From NCBI RefSeq assembly GCF_001648895.1, contig NZ_LXUF01000016.1:62001-126000 (forward strand): a stretch of 64,000 nt of DNA, read 5' to 3'. A program made the position numbers and the translations under genes. Position 1 is the stretch's first letter. Every line of letters starts with the position of its first letter. The notes beneath the pieces were generated by a model. The model was not told the origin of the DNA. It saw nothing but the letters and a program-made list of their open reading frames with translations, and did not search any database. Positions 2,638 to 51,746 of the stretch are shown piece after piece. The stretch comes from Methylovorus sp. MM2. Its GTDB lineage: Bacteria > Pseudomonadota > Gammaproteobacteria > Burkholderiales > Methylophilaceae.

Positions 2638-4056
2638 ATGGCTAAAATTATCCCGGTCATCTTATCCGGCGGCTCTGGCACTCGATTATGGCCATTGTCA
2701 CGGGCAGCACTGCCTAAACAACTGCTCCCGCTCATTTCTGATTACTCGATGTTGCAGGAGACATTGCAGCGTGTTATCGGCTGGGAGCAAGTCGATGCAC
2801 CTGTTGTGGTCTGTGGCAATGATCACCGCTTTCAGGTGGCGGAACAGTTGAGGGCGCTGGATATAGAGCCCAGATCTATCATGCTGGAACCTGTCGGGCG
2901 AAATACCGCCCCAGCTATTGCCGCCGCTGCAATGCTGCTTAAAGATGTCCCGGATGCCTTATTGCTGGTATTGCCTGCTGACCATGTAATACAGGATGTA
3001 GAAGCATTCGAACAAGCGGTAATTAGAGCATCTTCTGCGGCGGCGGCAGGGCGTTTAGTGACGTTTGGTATTCAGCCGGGTAGTCCAGAGACGGGCTACG
3101 GGTATATCCAGTCGGGGACTCAATTATCTGGGTATGAAGGATGTTTCGAGGTGGGTCGTTTTGTCGAGAAACCCGACCTTGAAACCGCAGAGTCATATAT
3201 CCAGAGTGGGGATTTCTACTGGAATAGCGGTATGTTCCTGTTCAAGCCGGATATCTACTTGGCAGAATTAGAAAAATTTAATCCCAAGATTGTACAGCAG
3301 GTGGCGCTTGCGTTCGAACAACGCTATCAGGATCTGGATTTTTGTCGGTTGGAAGAAAAGGCATTTTCCGAATCGCCTTCAGATTCTATCGATTATGCGA
3401 TCATGGAGCAGACCTCATTGGCGGCTGTAGTGCCGGTAGATATCGGCTGGAACGATGTAGGATCGTGGACTGCCTTATGGGAAGTGCAGGAACGTGATGG
3501 ACAGGGTAACGCCATTCGTGGAGATGTCTATCTGGATGGCGTGAAGAACTCGTTGATTCGCAGTGATAGCCGCTTCGTAGCAGTAATCGGTGTTGAAGAT
3601 ATTCTGATTGTCGAGACTGCTGACGCCGTACTTGTTTCCCATAAGGATCGTGCGCAGGATGTAAAGAAAATCGTCGATTATCTTAAGCTTGAGAAGCGTA
3701 GCGAGCATATATCGCATCCCCGCGTTTACCGTCCATGGGGTTGGTATGAGGGCATTGATGCCGGTGATCGCTTCCAGGTGAAGCGTATCATGGTAAAGCC
3801 CGGTCAGAAGCTGTCTTTGCAGATGCACCACCATCGGGCGGAGCACTGGGTGGTTGTAAGCGGATCAGCGATGGTCACGATAGATGGAAAGACAAAGCTC
3901 TTCAGCGAGAATGAGTCGACGTATATCCCGATAGGCTCCACTCATCGCCTTGAAAACCCAGGAAAACTGCCTTTGCATTTGATCGAGGTGCAATCAGGGG
4001 GTTACTTAGGCGAAGATGATATCGTGCGTTTTGAGGATACCTACGGGCGTTCCTGA
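2638..4056 (+). CDS. manC: Mannose-1-phosphate guanylyltransferase / mannose-6-phosphate isomerase
   Basis: A bifunctional 472-residue enzyme of the ManC/AlgA/CpsB type that makes GDP-mannose. The nucleotidyltransferase domain begins with the signature GGSGTRLWPLSR near the N-terminus and contains the FVEKP motif. The C-terminal cupin domain has the metal-binding stretch QMHHHRAEHWVV, expected for the type II phosphomannose isomerase activity. The ATG at 2638 is preferred over the in-frame TTG at 2632 because ACTAGGA lies about 7 bases before it and the family starts at this point. It converges with rfbD, with only 8 bases between the two stops. Confidence 0.93.
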   Translation: MAKIIPVILSGGSGTRLWPLSRAALPKQLLPLISDYSMLQETLQRVIGWEQVDAPVVVCGNDHRFQVAEQLRALDIEPRSIMLEPVGRNTAPAIAAAAMLLKDVPDALLLVLPADHVIQDVEAFEQAVIRASSAAAAGRLVTFGIQPGSPETGYGYIQSGTQLSGYEGCFEVGRFVEKPDLETAESYIQSGDFYWNSGMFLFKPDIYLAELEKFNPKIVQQVALAFEQRYQDLDFCRLEEKAFSESPSDSIDYAIMEQTSLAAVVPVDIGWNDVGSWTALWEVQERDGQGNAIRGDVYLDGVKNSLIRSDSRFVAVIGVEDILIVETADAVLVSHKDRAQDVKKIVDYLKLEKRSEHISHPRVYRPWGWYEGIDAGDRFQVKRIMVKPGQKLSLQMHHHRAEHWVVVSGSAMVTIDGKTKLFSENESTYIPIGSTHRLENPGKLPLHLIEVQSGGYLGEDDIVRFEDTYGRS

Positions 4057-4064
4057 GTTTTTGT

Positions 4065-4976
4065 TTAACCTGTTATAAATTCAGGTGTTTGCATTACGCC
4101 TACTAAAGCTGATCGCCAGTCCTCTAACTCAATATCAAATATCTGCGATAGTTTGCTGCAATCCATGCGTGAGTTGGCTGGGCGATGGGCAGGTGTAGGG
4201 TAATCTGCTGTACTAATGGCTTCGACATGTTCGATCGCTGTTCGCAAGGCAGACCAGCCGTTTAGTTTTTGCAAGAATGAATACTGTTCAATGATTGCCT
4301 GCGCGAAACCATACCAGCTTGTATCACCGCTGTTAGTCAGATGGTAGGTTCCGCTTTTATCTTTATGCCAGTTTAGCAGGCTAGCTACAGTAGTCTCTGC
4401 AATCGAAGTGCTGGATGTTGGCGCGCCCATCTGGTCACCCACGATACGCAAACTATCGCGTTCCATAGCTAGGCGCAGGATCGTACGCAGAAAATTCTTG
4501 CCGTATGACCCATAAACCCAACTGGTACGAAAGATCATGTGTGGAGTGTCTGCGGCACGAATGGCTTCTTCTCCTGCCAGTTTGGTTTTGCCGTAAACGC
4601 TCAGTGGATTTGTGATATCAGTTTCTACATAGGGAGTAGCCTTTGCTCCATCGAATACATAGTCGGTCGAGAAATGTATAAGCAATGCGCCGAGCTTTTT
4701 TGCTTCTTCAGCAATGATGCCCGGGGCAACACCATTGATAGCCATTGCAAGCTCCGGTTCAGATTCTGCCTTATCCACTGCTGTATAAGCCGCAGGGTTA
4801 ACAATCAGATCGGGTTTTATCTGCTGAATGCATCGCCTGATGGCTGAAGTGTCTGTGAGGTCTAGCTGGCTGCGGTCAAGTCCAATGACATTGCCTAAAG
4901 TCGCTAGTTTGCTCTGCAGTGCGTGACCAACCTGGCCATTGATGCCGGTAAGCAGGATTGTTTCAAATCTTGGCAT
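4065..4976 (-). CDS. rfbD: dTDP-4-dehydrorhamnose reductase
   Basis: Last step of dTDP-L-rhamnose synthesis: NAD(P)H-dependent reduction of dTDP-4-keto-L-rhamnose. The 303 residues form an extended short-chain dehydrogenase. The N-terminal nucleotide motif is GINGQVGHAL, STDYVFDG is conserved, and the catalytic YxxxK is YGKTK. It is the last gene of the operon rfbB-rfbA-rfbC-rfbD. Its ATG overlaps the TAA of rfbC by one base (TAATG), so translation is probably coupled. Confidence 0.95.
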   Translation of the reverse strand: MPRFETILLTGINGQVGHALQSKLATLGNVIGLDRSQLDLTDTSAIRRCIQQIKPDLIVNPAAYTAVDKAESEPELAMAINGVAPGIIAEEAKKLGALLIHFSTDYVFDGAKATPYVETDITNPLSVYGKTKLAGEEAIRAADTPHMIFRTSWVYGSYGKNFLRTILRLAMERDSLRIVGDQMGAPTSSTSIAETTVASLLNWHKDKSGTYHLTNSGDTSWYGFAQAIIEQYSFLQKLNGWSALRTAIEHVEAISTADYPTPAHRPANSRMDCSKLSQIFDIELEDWRSALVGVMQTPEFITG

Positions 4977-5521
4977 TACTCAAACACTTCTGCTTCTTGA
5001 AAGCGTGAGCCTAATTGATCCTTGGATGAAAGTATCGGCGGCACATCAAGAGGCCATTCAATGGCGAGCGAAGGGTCGTTCCACTGGATGCATCGTTCAT
5101 GTGCCGGGGCATAAAGTTCTGTGGTTTTATATAAGAACTCAGCAAAATCGGAGAGTACGAGAAACCCATGCGCAAAACCTTCTGGTACCCACATTTGCCG
5201 TTTATTTTCTGCTGAAAGGTATTCACCTACCCATTTCCCGAAAGTCGGGGATGAGCGTCTTAAATCAACGGCAACGTCAAATACCTCGCCCGCAGTCACC
5301 CTCACTAATTTACCCTGTGGTTGATGAATCTGGTAATGCAATCCACGTAAAACCCCCTTGGCTGAACCGGAATGATTATCCTGAACAAAGTTGGGTTTTA
5401 GGCCTGTGGCATTTTGAAAGACAGTTTCATTAAAACTTTCGAAGAAAAATCCACGGGCATCACCAAATACTTTCGGCTCGAAAACTAGGACATCAGCGAT
5501 AGCTGTTTTTACTACATTCAT
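4976..5521 (-). CDS. rfbC: dTDP-4-dehydrorhamnose 3,5-epimerase
   Basis: Third enzyme of dTDP-L-rhamnose synthesis, a cupin-fold epimerase that inverts C3 and C5 of the 4-keto sugar. The 181 residues are of usual length. RGFFFESFNE and QDNHSGSAKGVLRGLHYQ match the family, with the catalytic base His in GLHYQ. The start overlaps the stop of rfbA by one base (TAATG), and the stop overlaps the rfbD start in the same way, a tightly packed operon. Confidence 0.95.
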   Translation of the reverse strand: MNVVKTAIADVLVFEPKVFGDARGFFFESFNETVFQNATGLKPNFVQDNHSGSAKGVLRGLHYQIHQPQGKLVRVTAGEVFDVAVDLRRSSPTFGKWVGEYLSAENKRQMWVPEGFAHGFLVLSDFAEFLYKTTELYAPAHERCIQWNDPSLAIEWPLDVPPILSSKDQLGSRFQEAEVFE

Positions 5522-6399
5522 TAATAAACCTTTTCTTTTAGCATGCGTAGCAAATATTGCCCGTAGCTATTCTTTTTGTATATTTCAGCAATCGCTTCTA
5601 CCTGATCTGCACTGATATAACCCATGCGATATGCAATCTCTTCAGGGCAGGCAATTTTAAGTCCTTGGCGTTTTTCGATCGTTTCTATAAACAATGAGGC
5701 CTCCAATAAAGACTCATGCGTACCTGTATCTAGCCATGCGTGCCCACGCCCCATGCGCTCAACATTGAGTTGGTCTTGTGCAAGATAGTGCTTGTTGATG
5801 TCCGTGATCTCTAGCTCACCTCTTGGAGATGGTTTGAGCGATGCTGCGATATCAATCACTTGGTTATCGTAAAAATATAAACCGGTGACTGCGTATCTTG
5901 ACTTAGGTGTTATTGGTTTTTCTTCAAGACTGATTGCTTGGCCATTGGCATCAAACTCTACGACCCCATAACGTTCTGGATCATTGACTGGATAAGCAAA
6001 GACAGTAGCGCCTTCCTTCTTTGTGTTGGCATTATTCAGGTCGCTGCCAAGGTCATGCCCATAAAATATGTTATCGCCCAGCACCAATGCACTTGGGGAA
6101 TTTTGCAGAAAGTCACTGCCAATGATAAATGCTTGCGCCAGACCATCTGGAGATGCTTGAACGGCATAATTTAAATTGATGCCCCATTGGCTGCCATCAC
6201 CTAATAGTTGCTCAAACCTTGGCGTGTCTTGCGGGGTAGAGATGAGCAAGATATCGCGTATGCCTGCAAGCATCAGGGTCGATAGCGGGTAGTAGACCAT
6301 CGGTTTATCATAGACCGGTAATAGTTGTTTTGAGACAGCTTGAGTGACAGGGTACAGCCTTGTGCCTGAGCCACCTGCAAGTATGATGCCTTTTCTCAC
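5521..6399 (-). CDS. rfbA: Glucose-1-phosphate thymidylyltransferase
   Basis: First step of the dTDP-rhamnose pathway: condenses dTTP with glucose-1-phosphate. The 292 residues include the nucleotidyltransferase signature [20 protein letters not shown] at the N-terminus and [10 protein letters not shown] with the metal-binding Asp. SLEEKP in the middle binds sugar phosphate. It overlaps rfbB by four bases (ATGA) and rfbC by one base. It supplies dTDP-glucose to rfbB. Confidence 0.95.
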
Positions 6400-40494: not shown

Positions 40495-42483
40495 ATGACT
40501 GCTATTACCTCTACTACAGGTGTTGCCTCTGGCCTCGATGTCGATGCCATCGTAACCGCGTTGGTGACGGGTGAGTCAGGTACGCTGACTAAGCTGACGC
40601 AACAGCAGACCGCTTACAATGCTAAAGTATCCGCATACGGTACGCTTACCAGCGCACTTTCTACTTTTCAGACTGCGATTGCAAAATTATCGACTGCATC
40701 GGGATTCAATTCCTTACTTGCAAAAGCGTCAGATAGTAGTGTTTTTACTGCAACTGCAACTAGCAACGCGACTGTAGGTAGCTATAGCGTCAATGTCTCT
40801 CAGCTAGCTCAGCAACAAAAACTATCTTCAAGTGGTTTTGCGTCAACTAACAGTGCGATTGGTTCTGGTACGCTGACGATCTCATTCGGTAGTTATGACA
40901 GCGGCACCAATACATTCTCAGCAAATGGTGCTGGCAGCACTACTTCTATTAATATCACGTCAGGCAATAACACTCTCTCAGGTGTACGCGATGCAATCAA
41001 TGCCGCGGGTGCGGGGGTAACAGCTACCATCATTAACGATGGTTCGACCAATCGGCTGGTGGTGACATCAACTGCAACAGGTACGAGTAATTCGATCAAG
41101 ATCGACGTGACAGATAGCGATGGTAATAGCACTGATTCTACAGGCCTTTCACAGCTTGCTTATGACCCAACAGCGACTGTTGGCAGTGGTAAGAACATGA
41201 CTGAGAAACAGGCGGCTAAAGATGCGCTACTGACGATTGATGGTATTGCCGTGACTAAATCCAGCAATACCATTACAGATGCGATCGATGGGGTTACCTT
41301 GAAGCTTGTGAAAGAAAGTGCTGGCAGCAATGTATCGCTTGATGTGACTAAAGATACAACAACAGTGCAAGCCTCCGTGCAGGCTTTTGTCGATGCATAT
41401 AATGCGCTGGATAGCAAGATCAGGACATTAACCAAATTCGTTGCCGTTGATTCAACCAGTAACGGTGAGTTATTGGGCGACTCAACCGCGCGTGCTATCT
41501 CTACCCAGCTAAAAAGTATCATGACGCAGGCTGTGACAGGTGCGGGTTCTTACACGAGTTTGTCACAGATCGGGGTGGCATTCCAGAGTGATGGCACCTT
41601 GAAGTTGGATACGACCAAGTTAGCAACAGCGATGGATAGTAATTTCAGCGATATCGCCGCCTTATTTTCTACAAGCAGCACCAGTACTGATGCACTTGTG
41701 AAAGTGACAGGAAACAGCACAAGTACAAAACCAGGATCCTATGCCGTCAATATCACCCAAGCAGCGCAGCAAGGCTCATTGTTGGGCAGTAGTGGCCCAA
41801 ATCTTAATATAGTCGCTGGTGTGAATGACCATTTAGACCTCAATATTAGTGGTGTGAGTTATGGCATCAATGTAGCCGCTGGCAGTTACGCAAATACGGC
41901 AGACCTGATTGCAGCTATTCAGGCAAAATTAACCGCTGCTGGCGCAAAAGCTTCAGTGAGTCTAGATAGCGGTGCGCTCAAGATCACGACTACTAATTAT
42001 GGTGCGAGTGAATCCGTTGCGATTACCGGCGGAAATGGCGCAACAGATCTTTTCGGAGGTAGTCCAACTGCTGTGGCTGGACTGGATGTAGCCGGCACGA
42101 TTAATGGAGTAGCAGCGACTGGTACTGGTCAAAGCCTAGTGAGCACTTCCGGTGATAGTACCGGCTTGATCGTGAATATTACGGGCGCTACATTGGGTAG
42201 CCGCGGAACAGTTACTTACGCGCAAGGCGCCGCTTACAAGCTGAATCAGTACGCTCAGCAGATGTTAGGCTCAGATGGGCTGATAGAGGCACGTACCGAT
42301 GGATTAGCCACTTCTCTTGATCGTATTGCAGACCAGATAGATGAGCAAAATGTCCGGTTGGCAAAAGTCGAAGCGCGTTATCGCGCACAGTTCGCATCTC
42401 TTGAAACATTGATTAGTAGTATGCAGACAACCAGCAGTTACCTGACACAACAAATCGCGCAATTTAATGCTAACTCTAAATAA
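40495..42483 (+). CDS. fliD: Flagellar filament cap protein
   Basis: 662 residues, the pentameric cap (HAP2) that assembles flagellin at the tip. Conserved N-terminal STTGVASGLDVDAIVTALV and C-terminal coiled part (RLAKVEARYRAQFASLETLISSMQTTSSYL). Middle domains are Ser/Thr/Gly-rich. SD AAGGATACGA precedes the ATG. FliT is its usual export chaperone and is encoded two genes on. Confidence 0.95.
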   Translation: MTAITSTTGVASGLDVDAIVTALVTGESGTLTKLTQQQTAYNAKVSAYGTLTSALSTFQTAIAKLSTASGFNSLLAKASDSSVFTATATSNATVGSYSVNVSQLAQQQKLSSSGFASTNSAIGSGTLTISFGSYDSGTNTFSANGAGSTTSINITSGNNTLSGVRDAINAAGAGVTATIINDGSTNRLVVTSTATGTSNSIKIDVTDSDGNSTDSTGLSQLAYDPTATVGSGKNMTEKQAAKDALLTIDGIAVTKSSNTITDAIDGVTLKLVKESAGSNVSLDVTKDTTTVQASVQAFVDAYNALDSKIRTLTKFVAVDSTSNGELLGDSTARAISTQLKSIMTQAVTGAGSYTSLSQIGVAFQSDGTLKLDTTKLATAMDSNFSDIAALFSTSSTSTDALVKVTGNSTSTKPGSYAVNITQAAQQGSLLGSSGPNLNIVAGVNDHLDLNISGVSYGINVAAGSYANTADLIAAIQAKLTAAGAKASVSLDSGALKITTTNYGASESVAITGGNGATDLFGGSPTAVAGLDVAGTINGVAATGTGQSLVSTSGDSTGLIVNITGATLGSRGTVTYAQGAAYKLNQYAQQMLGSDGLIEARTDGLATSLDRIADQIDEQNVRLAKVEARYRAQFASLETLISSMQTTSSYLTQQIAQFNANSK

Positions 42484-42503
42484 GCTAATAAGGAGTCGAA
42501 ATC

Positions 42504-42944
42504 ATGTTTGGATCAAATAAAGGCATAGGCGAATACGCAAGAGTCGGGATTGAGACCGGCGTTGCCGCCGCCAATCCACATAAATTGATCGTGATGCTAT
42601 ATGACGGTGCGATCGTTGCATGTCGGTCTGCCATTATGCCGATGAAAGAGCATGACATTGCACAGAAAAGTGCGTTGATCTCCAAGGCGATCATGATTAT
42701 TGAAAGCGGTTTAAGGTTAAGCTTGGATAAAAAAGCAGGTGGAGAAATCGCTGAAAGTCTTGATGCGCTATATGCTTATATGAGTAATCGCCTATATATC
42801 GCTAATTTAAAGAATCAACCTGAGTTGATTGAAGAAGTGATCAAGCTGTTAGTTGACTTGAAGGGATCGTGGGAGGCGATCGGCCAATCGGCACAAACAA
42901 AAAGTATAAATCCAGAACCGTATTATGCTGTTGCAGGAGCCTAA
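42504..42944 (+). CDS. fliS: Flagellin export chaperone
   Basis: 146 residues, the helical chaperone that prevents early flagellin polymerisation in the cytoplasm. EYARVGIETGVAAANPHKLIVMLYDGAI is the family signature. SD AGGAG precedes the ATG. It is followed by fliT with a 2-base gap. Confidence 0.95.
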   Translation: MFGSNKGIGEYARVGIETGVAAANPHKLIVMLYDGAIVACRSAIMPMKEHDIAQKSALISKAIMIIESGLRLSLDKKAGGEIAESLDALYAYMSNRLYIANLKNQPELIEEVIKLLVDLKGSWEAIGQSAQTKSINPEPYYAVAGA

Positions 42945-42946
42945 TA

Positions 42947-43267
42947 ATGGGACAAAACACCACCGTAGCGATTTATGAGTCTGTTGCAAAGATCACCAAC
43001 CAGATGTTGTTGGCTGCCCAGCAGCAGAATTGGGAAAAGCTTGCCCAGTTAGAGCTAGATTGTGCGGCTTATGTGAAGAAATTACAGAATAGCGATGAAG
43101 AATCTTTGAGTGGTAGGGCACTTGAGCGTAAAGTAGCCAGCTTGAAGAAGATTCTTGAAGATGATCGAGAGATTCGTAACCTCGTCAACCCTTGGGAAGA
43201 CAAGATTGCCAAGATCATCAATACAACGCATTTTGATAAGAGGCGTCGCCATCATTCTCTACAATGA
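42947..43267 (+). CDS. fliT: FliT-like flagellar chaperone
   Basis: 106 residues, helical, in the usual fliT place behind fliS. WEKLAQLELDCAAYVKKLQ resembles the FliT core. Start ATG 42947 has AGGAG 8 bases before it; a longer frame that begins inside fliS is out-of-frame background. Weak sequence conservation, hence moderate confidence. Confidence 0.8.
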   Translation: MGQNTTVAIYESVAKITNQMLLAAQQQNWEKLAQLELDCAAYVKKLQNSDEESLSGRALERKVASLKKILEDDREIRNLVNPWEDKIAKIINTTHFDKRRRHHSLQ

Positions 43268-43281
43268 TTTAGTGCAATAGT

Positions 43282-44232
43282 ATGATTAAACTACCAGACA
43301 TGATCAGCGTGCAGCCGATGGATAAGGTCACGCCGATTTTGCCTACGGTACGGATCGCCGATGCGATCCAAGACCTTGATTTCCGCGCGACGCAGTTACT
43401 CAAGGGGCAGGATTATTATGCGCATGTCCTATCAAAAGTCGACGATAAGACCTTTATGGTCAAAGTCGAAGGCGCCATTCTTAAAATGGACCTTAGTAAA
43501 TCCACCACGGTAGGTCAGACCCTACTGCTCAAATATATCAATGATGCCCCTCAACCGACATTCATGCTAGTGCAGCAGAATGTCACCGCACCGAAGAACG
43601 AGGCAAATTTAAGTCCCACGGGCCGTTGGATAGACCAAAAGCTTAAAGAGGCCGAGAAGCAGGGTGTAACAGCGCAATATGTTTCTGATGATGTGGTGAC
43701 TAATACACCTAAGACACCGCAAGTGGTAGCGCAGGAATTAAAAAACGCATTGACGAATAGCGGCTTGTTCTATGAATCGCATCTACGTGATTTCGTTGAG
43801 GGCCAGCGTACGCTTCAAGCTGTGATGCAAGAGCCGCAAAATCAGCCGAATGCGCCCACGACTGCGCTAATGGCACAGCAGTTGGCCATTCTTGAAAACC
43901 AGCGACTAGTATGGCGCGGTGAGGTATGGCCGGGTCAGATGATGGATTGGGAGGTTGAGCGCCGGGATGAGAGTAGTAATGAAGATCAAGCAGCATCTTC
44001 ATCGCAAACCCCTGAGCAGCCGCCTATCTCCAGTGTAATTGTTCTGCATTTACCTAAACTCGGTAAAGTGTCTGCGCGTATTCGTATCGCCAATGATCAG
44101 GTGCAGGTGAATATCTCGGCTCTAAATGCGGTCACATTAAACAAACTTAAAGTGCAGAGTATGCATTTGGTCAATGCTTTTGAGCTACATGGGCAAAAGC
44201 TTGAAGCGTTAACGGTAACTGCGGATGAGTAA
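43282..44232 (+). CDS. FliK-like hook-length control protein (second copy)
   Basis: 316 residues. The C-terminal part (IVLHLPKLGKVSARIRIANDQVQVNISALNAVTLNKLKVQSMHLVNAFELHG) resembles the hook-length control domain of FliK, while the N-terminal part (RATQLLKGQDYYAHVLSKVDDKTFMVKVEGAILKMDL) is unlike that of the true FliK at 50451. It is followed, with 8 bases overlap, by a FlhB C-terminal-like gene. FliK and the FlhB C-terminus interact to switch export, so the two may work as a pair. Confidence 0.7.
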   Translation: MIKLPDMISVQPMDKVTPILPTVRIADAIQDLDFRATQLLKGQDYYAHVLSKVDDKTFMVKVEGAILKMDLSKSTTVGQTLLLKYINDAPQPTFMLVQQNVTAPKNEANLSPTGRWIDQKLKEAEKQGVTAQYVSDDVVTNTPKTPQVVAQELKNALTNSGLFYESHLRDFVEGQRTLQAVMQEPQNQPNAPTTALMAQQLAILENQRLVWRGEVWPGQMMDWEVERRDESSNEDQAASSSQTPEQPPISSVIVLHLPKLGKVSARIRIANDQVQVNISALNAVTLNKLKVQSMHLVNAFELHGQKLEALTVTADE

Positions 44233-44584
44233 AGCTGCTTCATCACATCAGCAAGCGGTCGCGTTAGCTTACGTGACAGGAGATCTCGCACCGAAGGTGG
44301 TAGCAAGAGGGCGGGGTGTGATTGCTGAACAGATCATCGCTAAAGCCAAAGAGCACGAAGTGTTCGTGCATGAATCAAAAGACTTGGTGGCTTTATTGAT
44401 GCAGGTAGACTTGGATGACCATATTCCAGCTGCACTTTATCAGGCGATCGCCGAAATCTTGGCCTGGTTATACCATGTTGAGAATAATGAAAGTCCGGAA
44501 AATATCTATAAAGGCGATGAGAAACCATCAGAGCCCCAATACAACACGATACCGCAGCCTTTGCTCTTGACTGAGGAAAAGTAA
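44225..44584 (+). CDS. FlhB C-terminal domain-like protein (FlhX/YlqH type)
   Basis: 119 residues matching only the cytoplasmic C-terminal domain of FlhB (AVALAYVTGDLAPKVVARGRGVIAEQIIAKAKEHEVFV, DLDDHIPAALYQAIAEILAWLY). No membrane part and no NPTH autocleavage site. Similar stand-alone proteins (FlhX in Campylobacter, YlqH in Bacillus) can partly replace the FlhB C-terminal fragment. Overlaps the FliK-like gene by 8 bases. The full-length flhB is not in the window. Confidence 0.85.
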   Translation: MSKAASSHQQAVALAYVTGDLAPKVVARGRGVIAEQIIAKAKEHEVFVHESKDLVALLMQVDLDDHIPAALYQAIAEILAWLYHVENNESPENIYKGDEKPSEPQYNTIPQPLLLTEEK

Positions 44585-44619: not shown

Positions 44620-44988
44620 CTAGATCGCCATATTCATGATGTCGTGGTAAGCCGAAACCAGTTTATTACGTACCTGAATAGTGGCCTGAAATGAGATGTT
44701 GGCTTTTTGCCCGGCAATCATCACATCTGAAAGGCTCACCTTGTCGTCGCCCATGGCAAAGTTCTTGCCCATGCTCTCTGCATCGATCTGCATTTTGTTG
44801 ACGTTATCAAGTGATGACTTTAACGCATCGGAGAAATCGACGCGTTTCGTCTCCTGATTCGCCTGTATGTTGGCTAATGCTGCCCCACCCTTGGCGGCGG
44901 TGCTTTCTGAGGCAGGTTTTTGTGCTGCAGCCTTTAACTGTGCTAGCATGGCTTCGATTCTGCCGGAATCAATCGCATTAATCGTCAT
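44620..44988 (-). CDS. fliE: Flagellar hook-basal body protein FliE
   Basis: 122 residues, links the MS ring to the rod. The C-terminal part (KVSLSDVMIAGQKANISFQATIQVRNKLVSAYHDIMNM) is the FliE family core. It lies divergent from fliF, whereas in most genomes fliE is upstream of fliF on the same strand. A 191-base spacer holds both promoters. Confidence 0.93.
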   Translation of the reverse strand: MTINAIDSGRIEAMLAQLKAAAQKPASESTAAKGGAALANIQANQETKRVDFSDALKSSLDNVNKMQIDAESMGKNFAMGDDKVSLSDVMIAGQKANISFQATIQVRNKLVSAYHDIMNMAI

Positions 44989-50450: not shown

Positions 50451-51746
50451 ATGCAAAACTTATCATTATTGATTTCACAAAGTAATCCTGCGCAGACTGT
50501 TCCATCAGCCGTTAGCAACCCCGATAAAAGCTCGGCGAATGCATCTGCGAACGAGGGCGCTTCTTTTAAAGAGTTGCTTTCAACGCAAGTGAGAAATAAA
50601 CAGGCGCAGACCGATCAAACACGTGCTGCGCAAGCAAGAATCGATGAAAAATCACGTTTGGCTGAACAGCAAGTGGCGAAGAAAATAGTCAATGCTGGTG
50701 ATACCAACGTCAAAACAACCACTGCTTCAGCCCCATCAGCTGAACCTGTTTCTGAAAAAGCTAAAGAGATTGTTGATAGCAATATCAAGGATCAAGCGCT
50801 TTCCATAACGCAAGATAAAGCCGATGTTGACACTAAAAAAACAGCAATCGTCGCAGATGCCAAAGATGTTCCGGTAGAAGATGTACCTGCGTTGACCGCT
50901 GATGCCGCTACTGTTATTGCGGCGCCAATCGTGCCGATTACCCCGCAAGTAGAATCGACAAGTGTGAGCGAGATAAAAACAGGGAATGCAGCCGCTGATA
51001 TCACCGCACAGAAACGCAGTGCCTTAGATGCTGATCTACGTGCCGAACTCGCGCAACATAAAAAGGCTGGCGATGCGAAAGATATTGCTGTCTCAGGTAA
51101 ATCTTCTGAGCATGCTGCTGATCTCTCCGAGTGGGTTGATAGTATATTGCCGAATGCGGCTAAAGTGGCTGATGCCACGGATGCACAAACGAACAAGCTG
51201 ATGGCGGGTGCTAAAGAATCAGTGGCAAAAGATGCTGCCTTAACTTCAGCAATTCAAGCGCCTGTGCCGCAAGCCACACAACAAACAAGCCAGCTTCAGG
51301 TAGCGCAGGCAGCAAGCTCGAATGTGATTAGTACGCCACCCGGTAAAACCGGTTGGGATCAGGCGATTGGTCAAAAAGTGGTTTGGATGGTAGGCGCTGC
51401 TGAACAATCTGCCACCCTGACCTTGAACCCGCCTGATCTTGGCCCGCTGCAAGTGGTGATCCATGTGCATAACGATCAAGCGGATGCTACTTTTATCTCG
51501 GATAATTCCGAGGTGCGCAAAGCTCTGGAAGATGGGCTGTCTAACCTGCGTGACATGATGAACCAGTCGGGAATCAATCTGGGGCAAACTAATATTGGTT
51601 CGGGAAGCCAGCAGAAAGAGTTTGAGCAAATGGCAAAAGCCCGTTCTGAACGTTTGGCTGGCGATAGCGGTGTGCAAGAAAGCGCCGTCGCTCATATACC
51701 AACTGTCAGTCGAGTAAGTAACGGTTTGGTAGATACTTTCGCCTGA
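50451..51746 (+). CDS. fliK: Flagellar hook-length control protein
   Basis: 431 residues. The N-terminal two thirds are Ala/Ser/Asp/Lys-rich and unstructured, as in molecular-ruler FliK. The C-terminal domain has ATLTLNPPDLGPLQVVIHVHNDQADATFISDNSEVRKALEDGLSNLRDMM (in part), the FliK hallmark. ATG 50451 has AGGTGA 7 bases before it. It determines hook length and triggers the FlhB substrate switch. Confidence 0.93.
   Translation: MQNLSLLISQSNPAQTVPSAVSNPDKSSANASANEGASFKELLSTQVRNKQAQTDQTRAAQARIDEKSRLAEQQVAKKIVNAGDTNVKTTTASAPSAEPVSEKAKEIVDSNIKDQALSITQDKADVDTKKTAIVADAKDVPVEDVPALTADAATVIAAPIVPITPQVESTSVSEIKTGNAAADITAQKRSALDADLRAELAQHKKAGDAKDIAVSGKSSEHAADLSEWVDSILPNAAKVADATDAQTNKLMAGAKESVAKDAALTSAIQAPVPQATQQTSQLQVAQAASSNVISTPPGKTGWDQAIGQKVVWMVGAAEQSATLTLNPPDLGPLQVVIHVHNDQADATFISDNSEVRKALEDGLSNLRDMMNQSGINLGQTNIGSGSQQKEFEQMAKARSERLAGDSGVQESAVAHIPTVSRVSNGLVDTFA

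Follow-up and report, generated by a model that had tools for sequence, protein, structure and literature searches.

A fliK-like gene overlapping a free-standing FlhB C-terminal domain in Methylovorus sp. MM2: a candidate auxiliary unit of the flagellar export switch

The mechanism by which the flagellar export gate changes its substrates has been an open question for decades. In Salmonella, the cleaved C-terminal domain of FlhB (FlhB-CCD) is described as keeping the gate in the early mode and as bearing the pocket for early substrates; it is reported to disappear at the switch in a FliK-dependent manner, and its deletion to block early secretion of FlgE-Bla (PMC13344023). The same 2026 study proposes that the last residues of FliK physically eject FlhB-CCD. 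The core of FliK-C is described as binding FlhB-C and as being followed by a disordered tail, which in Salmonella comprises residues 353-405 (PMC6972891).

A locus of Methylovorus sp. MM2 raises the question of what a second FliK and a second FlhB-CCD might do in a genome that encodes both canonical proteins. The locus lies in a window of 64,000 nucleotides, the whole stretch of DNA analysed here (contig NZ_LXUF01000016.1, positions 62,001 to 126,000). In the present study we describe the two genes, their retention among relatives and their age, and we weigh the roles that they may have in export.

Gene layout and the two predicted products

The names fliK2 and flhX were chosen here, and FlhX is labelled FhlB in the alignments and trees. 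The pair closes a run of flagellar genes on the forward strand:

40495..43267, + strand: fliD, fliS and fliT, directly 5' of fliK2; the run ends with fliK2-flhX
43282..44232, + strand: fliK2, FliK-like, 316 aa (PF02120 match, profile matches to 2RRL and 5CUK, AF2 model)
44225..44584, + strand: flhX (FhlB), free-standing FlhB cleaved C-terminal domain, 119 aa (PF01312, fold match 3b0z_B, tree)
44225..44232, + strand: overlap of fliK2 and flhX, 8 bases
44620..44988, - strand: fliE, convergent with flhX
50451..51746, + strand: canonical fliK, 431 aa from ATG 50451 (PF02120, 79.6 bits; ATG confirmed)

The full flhB (389 aa, with NPTH) is on the same contig beyond the window; this gene and flhX are the two FlhB-family matches of the genome. 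Named genomes were also scanned, and 80 relatives, the best of at least 467, were retained; the majority carry beta-proteobacterial titles, with Methylophilaceae and Methylotenera among the nearest. The stretch around each of these 80 named loci held fliS in 68, fliD in 63 and fliT in 47. Promoter and terminator scanning gave no excess over shuffled sequences.

By its sequence, FlhX is a short, membrane-free homologue of FlhB-CCD in a genome that also has a full FlhB. Pfam PF01312 (Bac_export_2) matches it over profile positions 262-335 of 335 only (62.6 bits, cut-off 24.4). Its best NCBIfam match is TIGR00789 (flhB_rel; E 7.7e-27), at 93.3 bits and thus below the curated cut-off of 117.35, as are the scores of all 249 genomes sampled from the phylum of the window. 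TIGR00789 also matches four controls including B. subtilis, two of them above the cut-off, in matches that do not distinguish the short from the full protein. No membrane segment was found in FlhX, the maximum 19-residue hydropathy being 1.2 versus 2.6 in full FlhB. The AF2 model is moderately confident (pLDDT 71.8, pTM 0.38), and its best fold match is 3b0z_B, a Salmonella FlhB fragment.

The cleavage site is missing: NPTH is absent from the window FlhX, and the alignment places SSHQQ at the position of NPTHY in FlhB. An NP dipeptide before the AVAL strand occurs in 5 of 102 FlhX rows, in which the window sequence is counted twice, and in none is it followed by TH. The initial annotation had described a 316-aa FliK-like gene overlapping a soluble FlhB C-terminal domain without NPTH, and had placed the true fliK at 50451; the reading frames, the overlap, the two Pfam matches, the hydropathy and SSHQQ agree with the former, and the canonical gene does open at that ATG. 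A few full-length FlhB sequences also depart from NPTH, with the N-P bond kept: L185, L201, L214 (NPTR), L187 (NPAH), L204 (NPSH) and L219 (NPLH).

FlhB of beta- and gamma-proteobacteria is described as having a proline-rich tail pattern (PMC7771051). In its strict form this pattern was found in 27 of 30 FlhB versus 0 of 102 FlhX rows. As a counter-point, the window FlhX has a tail of 38 residues whose several prolines, though outside the pattern, faintly recall the tail of FlhB.

The early-substrate pocket residues of Salmonella FlhB, as named in PMC13344023 and PMC9307174, align with the following codons of flhX:

44288..44293, + strand: codons A22-P23, corresponding to Salmonella FlhB A286-P287 of the pocket (alignment)
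44450..44461, + strand: codons A76 to L79, corresponding to A341 and L344 of the pocket (alignment)

A286, P287, A341 and L344 (Salmonella numbering) are kept in 28, 29, 29 and 29 of 29 FlhX, respectively. Retention of the pocket may reflect the fold alone, since both families conserve it together with many positions of the core (common to the 29 FlhX and 28 FlhB domains in the alignment). FlhX and FlhB also show fixed differences, e.g. L313 to H, A319 to V, a gap at R320, and Y323 to L.

FliK2 combines a FliK switch core with N-terminal and middle parts of its own, and its AF2 model has a mean pLDDT of 83 with residues 1-32 disordered. The parts are as follows:

43384..43575, + strand: residues 35-98, predicted five-stranded OB-like beta barrel (AF2)
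43615..43899, + strand: residues 112-206, predicted mainly helical middle (AF2)
43759..43782, + strand: SGLFYESH motif, residues 160-167, the most conserved part of the family
43903..44223, + strand: residues 208-314, FliK-C / T3S4 switch core, which stops 2 residues short of the C-terminus

PF02120 (Flg_hook) matches residues 251-314 at 38.8 bits (Pfam gathering cut-off 29.8), and NCBIfam gave zero matches for FliK2 at E values up to 1. A profile of 66 FliK2 sequences matches the C-domain of Salmonella FliK (2RRL, E 5.5e-8) and PscP (5CUK, E 5.7e-6). The barrel is closest to S1/OB domains, with a best Z of 6.7 (VIA-align). No fold family is claimed for it, because OB-like matches at Z of 6.7 or below are common.

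Within SGLFYESH, G161, F163, Y164, E165 and H167 are invariant in 29 FliK2 sequences, and S160, G161, F163, Y164 and E165 in 66; a conserved G and EPQ come after the motif. The pattern is found in 71 of 76 FliK2 of the named loci; of the five that it missed, three are short pieces. Alignment A3 held 72 of the 80 loci plus the window, and A4 held 65 of the 76 FliK2 plus the window. The motif was not found in the canonical fliK of the window or in any of the 16 scored canonical FliK of the order. These 16 are the sequences that matched the profile among 20 fetched stretches, and four of them come from genomes without FlhX.

FliK2 differs most from canonical FliK at its end. The tail beyond the switch core has a median of 2 aa in 66 FliK2 versus 36.5 aa in the 16 canonical FliK, counted in both from the end of the profile built on FliK2. 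The window FliK2 ends in ADE. A frequent C-terminus of canonical FliK in the order is G-x-[VI]-[DN]-x-[FY]-[AV], e.g. GLVDTFA, as seen in 13 of 17 sequences (the window and L231-L250; the end of L247 is missing).

Joint retention and age of the pair

The two genes are kept together almost without exception among relatives. Of 41 genomes (the window's own and relatives), 30 had an FlhB-family match, 29 of these with a short FlhB, and 11 had neither. FliK2 was matched in the same 29 genomes (the own genome and 28 relatives) and lies directly 5' of the short gene in 29/29, an adjacency far above chance. The overlap is possible in 25 of the 29, judged from candidate starts. Among the named loci, FliK2 is present in 77 of 80, and with automatic choice of start codons 73 of the 77 overlap.

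One of the four named loci lacking the overlap, in Massilia sp. H-1 (L117, 5116-6858), has FliK2 and FlhX in a single open frame, with the FliK2 N-terminal part in another frame. We give no weight to it as a natural fusion because the FliK2 part is split over two frames; it is either a sequencing error or a real fusion. A Thauera locus (L139) has two tandem FliK2-like genes (2829-4394 and 4398-5537) 5' of FlhX. Three Accumulibacter loci first appeared to have FlhX without FliK2, and this was overturned for two of them (L144 and L145; genomes G379 and G380), in which both genes are kept on one contig with ∼12 kb between them. The third (G381) has the FliK core only, and a full FlhB was not found in it.

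Sampling of 120 genomes of the order gave FlhX in 74, with a strong FliK2 in 71 of these and an adjacent partner in 73 of the 74; a strong FliK2 without FlhX was found in none of the 120. The other three FlhX genomes (G287, G359 and G318) have a divergent FliK-like gene, which in two is adjacent to FlhX (for G359 a judgement by eye) and in the third lies 4.1 kb 5' of it. The G318 locus (L251, 1163-2263 and 6314-6613) combines FlhX with a divergent FliK-like gene ∼4 kb away, and also has fliS-like and fliT-like genes, identified by eye.

FlhX is not retained everywhere. Ten of the 84 matching genomes of the order are without it and have a weaker match only, of the full-length kind in 7/7 with rows listed; eight of the ten match the FliK2 profile over the FliK core alone and two not at all. 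A single match was likewise found in 6 of 7 genomes of one family (f18). FlhX therefore looks dispensable, with a role that is not essential in all genomes. Beyond the class the two genes are less tightly linked: a match to a FliK-like HMM (E ≤ 1) lies directly 5' of 18 of 29 short genes, and none does for the other 11. One of three out-of-class partners examined (L079, L082, L093) has SGIFLEASL, which is similar to SGLFYESH. At five out-of-class loci (L067, L070, L072, L076 and L088) the gene directly 5' of FlhX resembles, by eye, a CorA/ZntB-type transporter rather than a FliK.

In a tree of 84 columns, unrooted and restricted to one phylum, 58 short and 49 full-length FlhB domains fall on the two sides of one branch (support 98/95); long branches and a bootstrap that is not fully settled call for some caution. 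The full FlhB were drawn from this order and from elsewhere in the phylum, with 29 of 30 rows in one tree, 45 of 50 stretches in a later one and 49 in the final one, after four were restored (L221 never fitted). Given this split, FlhX is probably an old separate paralogue and not a recent truncation, and recent or repeated local truncation of flhB is disfavoured. Mirror-tree analysis gave a partial correlation of 0.38 between FhlB and FliK2 given FlhB, with 2 of 2000 permutations as high. The value for FliK2 and FlhB given FhlB is higher (0.55), and co-evolution is therefore not specific to the pair.

Relation to known FliK and FlhB systems

Short relatives of FlhB accompanied by a FliK-like gene are a known kind, and it is their architecture and mechanism that are little studied. 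The ylqG-ylqH pair of Bacillus, to which the initial annotation had likened the locus, is described as a FliK-like gene and a short FlhB. Published work on Campylobacterota, Actinobacteria and Leptospira calls short FlhB paralogues FlhX (PMC9321776, PMC10746217, PMC4894983, PMC4758666), and an flhX-fliK pair is named for Nitratiruptor (PMC9321776). The latter resembles the present pair by description, in that a FliK-like gene is named with a short FlhB. Compared with Nitratiruptor flhX-fliK and Bacillus ylqG-ylqH, the pair described here stands within a flagellar cluster, after fliD-fliS-fliT. A ylqG mutation of B. subtilis appears in PMC11523185, where, in the part of the paper seen, function is not addressed.

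The FlhX/FhlB paralogues HP1575 of H. pylori and Cj0848c (flhX) of C. jejuni, associated with TIGR00789, are likewise short, membrane-free homologues of the FlhB C-terminus beside a full FlhB. The present family differs from that group in its partner, a FliK2 with SGLFYESH, and in scoring below the TIGR00789 cut-off; the likeness is one of description. HP1575, listed as flhB2, is reported as a 'spare part' when FlhB-CC is deleted.

FliK2 has the C-terminal T3S4 core in common with canonical FliK and differs from it in its tail (∼2 versus ∼36 residues), its predicted folded N-terminal and middle parts, and SGLFYESH. FlhX has the core and the four pocket residues in common with Salmonella FlhB-CCD; it differs in being made as a separate protein, with neither an NPTH junction nor the strict proline-rich tail pattern, and differs from full FlhB in lacking the membrane domain as well as NPTH. 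A query with E. coli Flk (Fluke, the second lock of Salmonella), run without a positive control, matched 0 of 41 genomes. Among the open-licence literature matches listed, none describes the FliK2 architecture, its near-strict joint retention with FlhX in the order, or a link between FlhX and CCD ejection, and none is by title a study of FliK2 or of beta-proteobacterial FlhX. The word FlhX was not found in the text available for PMC13344023.

Possible roles at the export gate

Homology to the cleaved domain of FlhB and to the FliK core, together with co-occurrence, makes a link of fliK2-flhX to the export switch well supported. The initial annotation had suggested that the pair may tune or replace this switch. 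Tuning is plausible from sequence comparison, and the pair may provide a spare lock or one that can be reset; 'replace' is unsupported because canonical fliK and an NPTH-bearing flhB are present in the same genome. Full flhB is also found in 29/29 genomes of the relatives' set that have the short gene, and at least a second FlhB-family match in 72 of the 74 FlhX genomes of the order sample.

We tentatively propose that fliK2-flhX encodes an auxiliary export-switch unit, in which FlhX would be a free CCD acting in trans and FliK2 its dedicated partner. FlhX would correspond to the piece that autocleavage releases from FlhB, encoded on its own and made without the membrane anchor, the cleavage site and the usual proline-rich tail motif. 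It might dock at the export gate in trans, at the seat of FlhB-CCD, and offer the same early-substrate pocket, so that the early (rod/hook) mode would be held or restored. FliK2, with a switch core of the kind that binds FlhB-CCD, would be the dedicated binding partner of FlhX. As it is without the ejecting tail end, it would hold, deliver or shield FlhX and would not fire the switch. Homology, conservation, joint retention, the gene overlap, the missing tail and cleavage site and the kept pocket residues are observed, whereas contact between FliK2 and FlhX, attachment to the gate and an influence on the switch are inferred. Points that count against the proposal are the non-specific mirror-tree signal, the 11 of 29 out-of-class short genes without a FliK-like neighbour, the genomes without FlhX, and the moderate model of FlhX.

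To our knowledge, Salmonella has no FlhX. The 'spare part' report from H. pylori contrasts with this, and fits a detached CCD. The most economical reading, we infer, is that a detached CCD, served by a partner of its own, would support or restore the early mode.

FlhX might instead never reach the gate and serve as a cytosolic sink or chaperone, binding the FliK2 core, or early subunits via its pocket, and thereby buffering their supply. Its predicted solubility, the retained substrate pocket, and the overlap of flhX with the gene of its presumed partner, 3' of the chaperone genes fliS and fliT, are all consistent with such a role. The title of the H. pylori report, however, points to a role in export when FlhB-CC is missing, and we consider buffering to be on the unlikely side.

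A further step beyond the auxiliary unit would be a resettable lock, which we hold to be unlikely: after FliK ejects FlhB-CCD, FlhX brought by FliK2 would refill the site and return the gate to the early mode, or a premature switch would be blocked. If FlhX refilled the vacant CCD site, the switch would not be irreversible in these lineages.

FlhX could also be a redundant spare of FlhB-CCD, idle while FlhB is intact, with FliK2 merely on the same transcript. The naming of HP1575 as a 'spare part' and the occurrence of genomes without FlhX speak for this, but the near-perfect co-retention with FliK2 in the order and the family-specific motif of FliK2 argue for a selected joint role, and we regard a pure back-up as quite unlikely. 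A second ruler, in which a secreted FliK2 would act via FlhX to give hooks or rods another length, is highly improbable: the FliK switch core is present, but there is almost no tail after it, and the model shows residues 35-98 and the greater part of 112-206 as folded and not as an extended ruler (AF2; prediction for FliK2 alone).

The auxiliary unit thus remains our preferred, if tentative, reading. Many bacteria of the order encode the FlhB-CCD as a free protein together with a tail-less FliK partner, and so provide a natural test of the switch. In cells that contain FlhX, early export would be expected to survive the loss of FlhB-CCD, and whether the switch is irreversible could then be tested.
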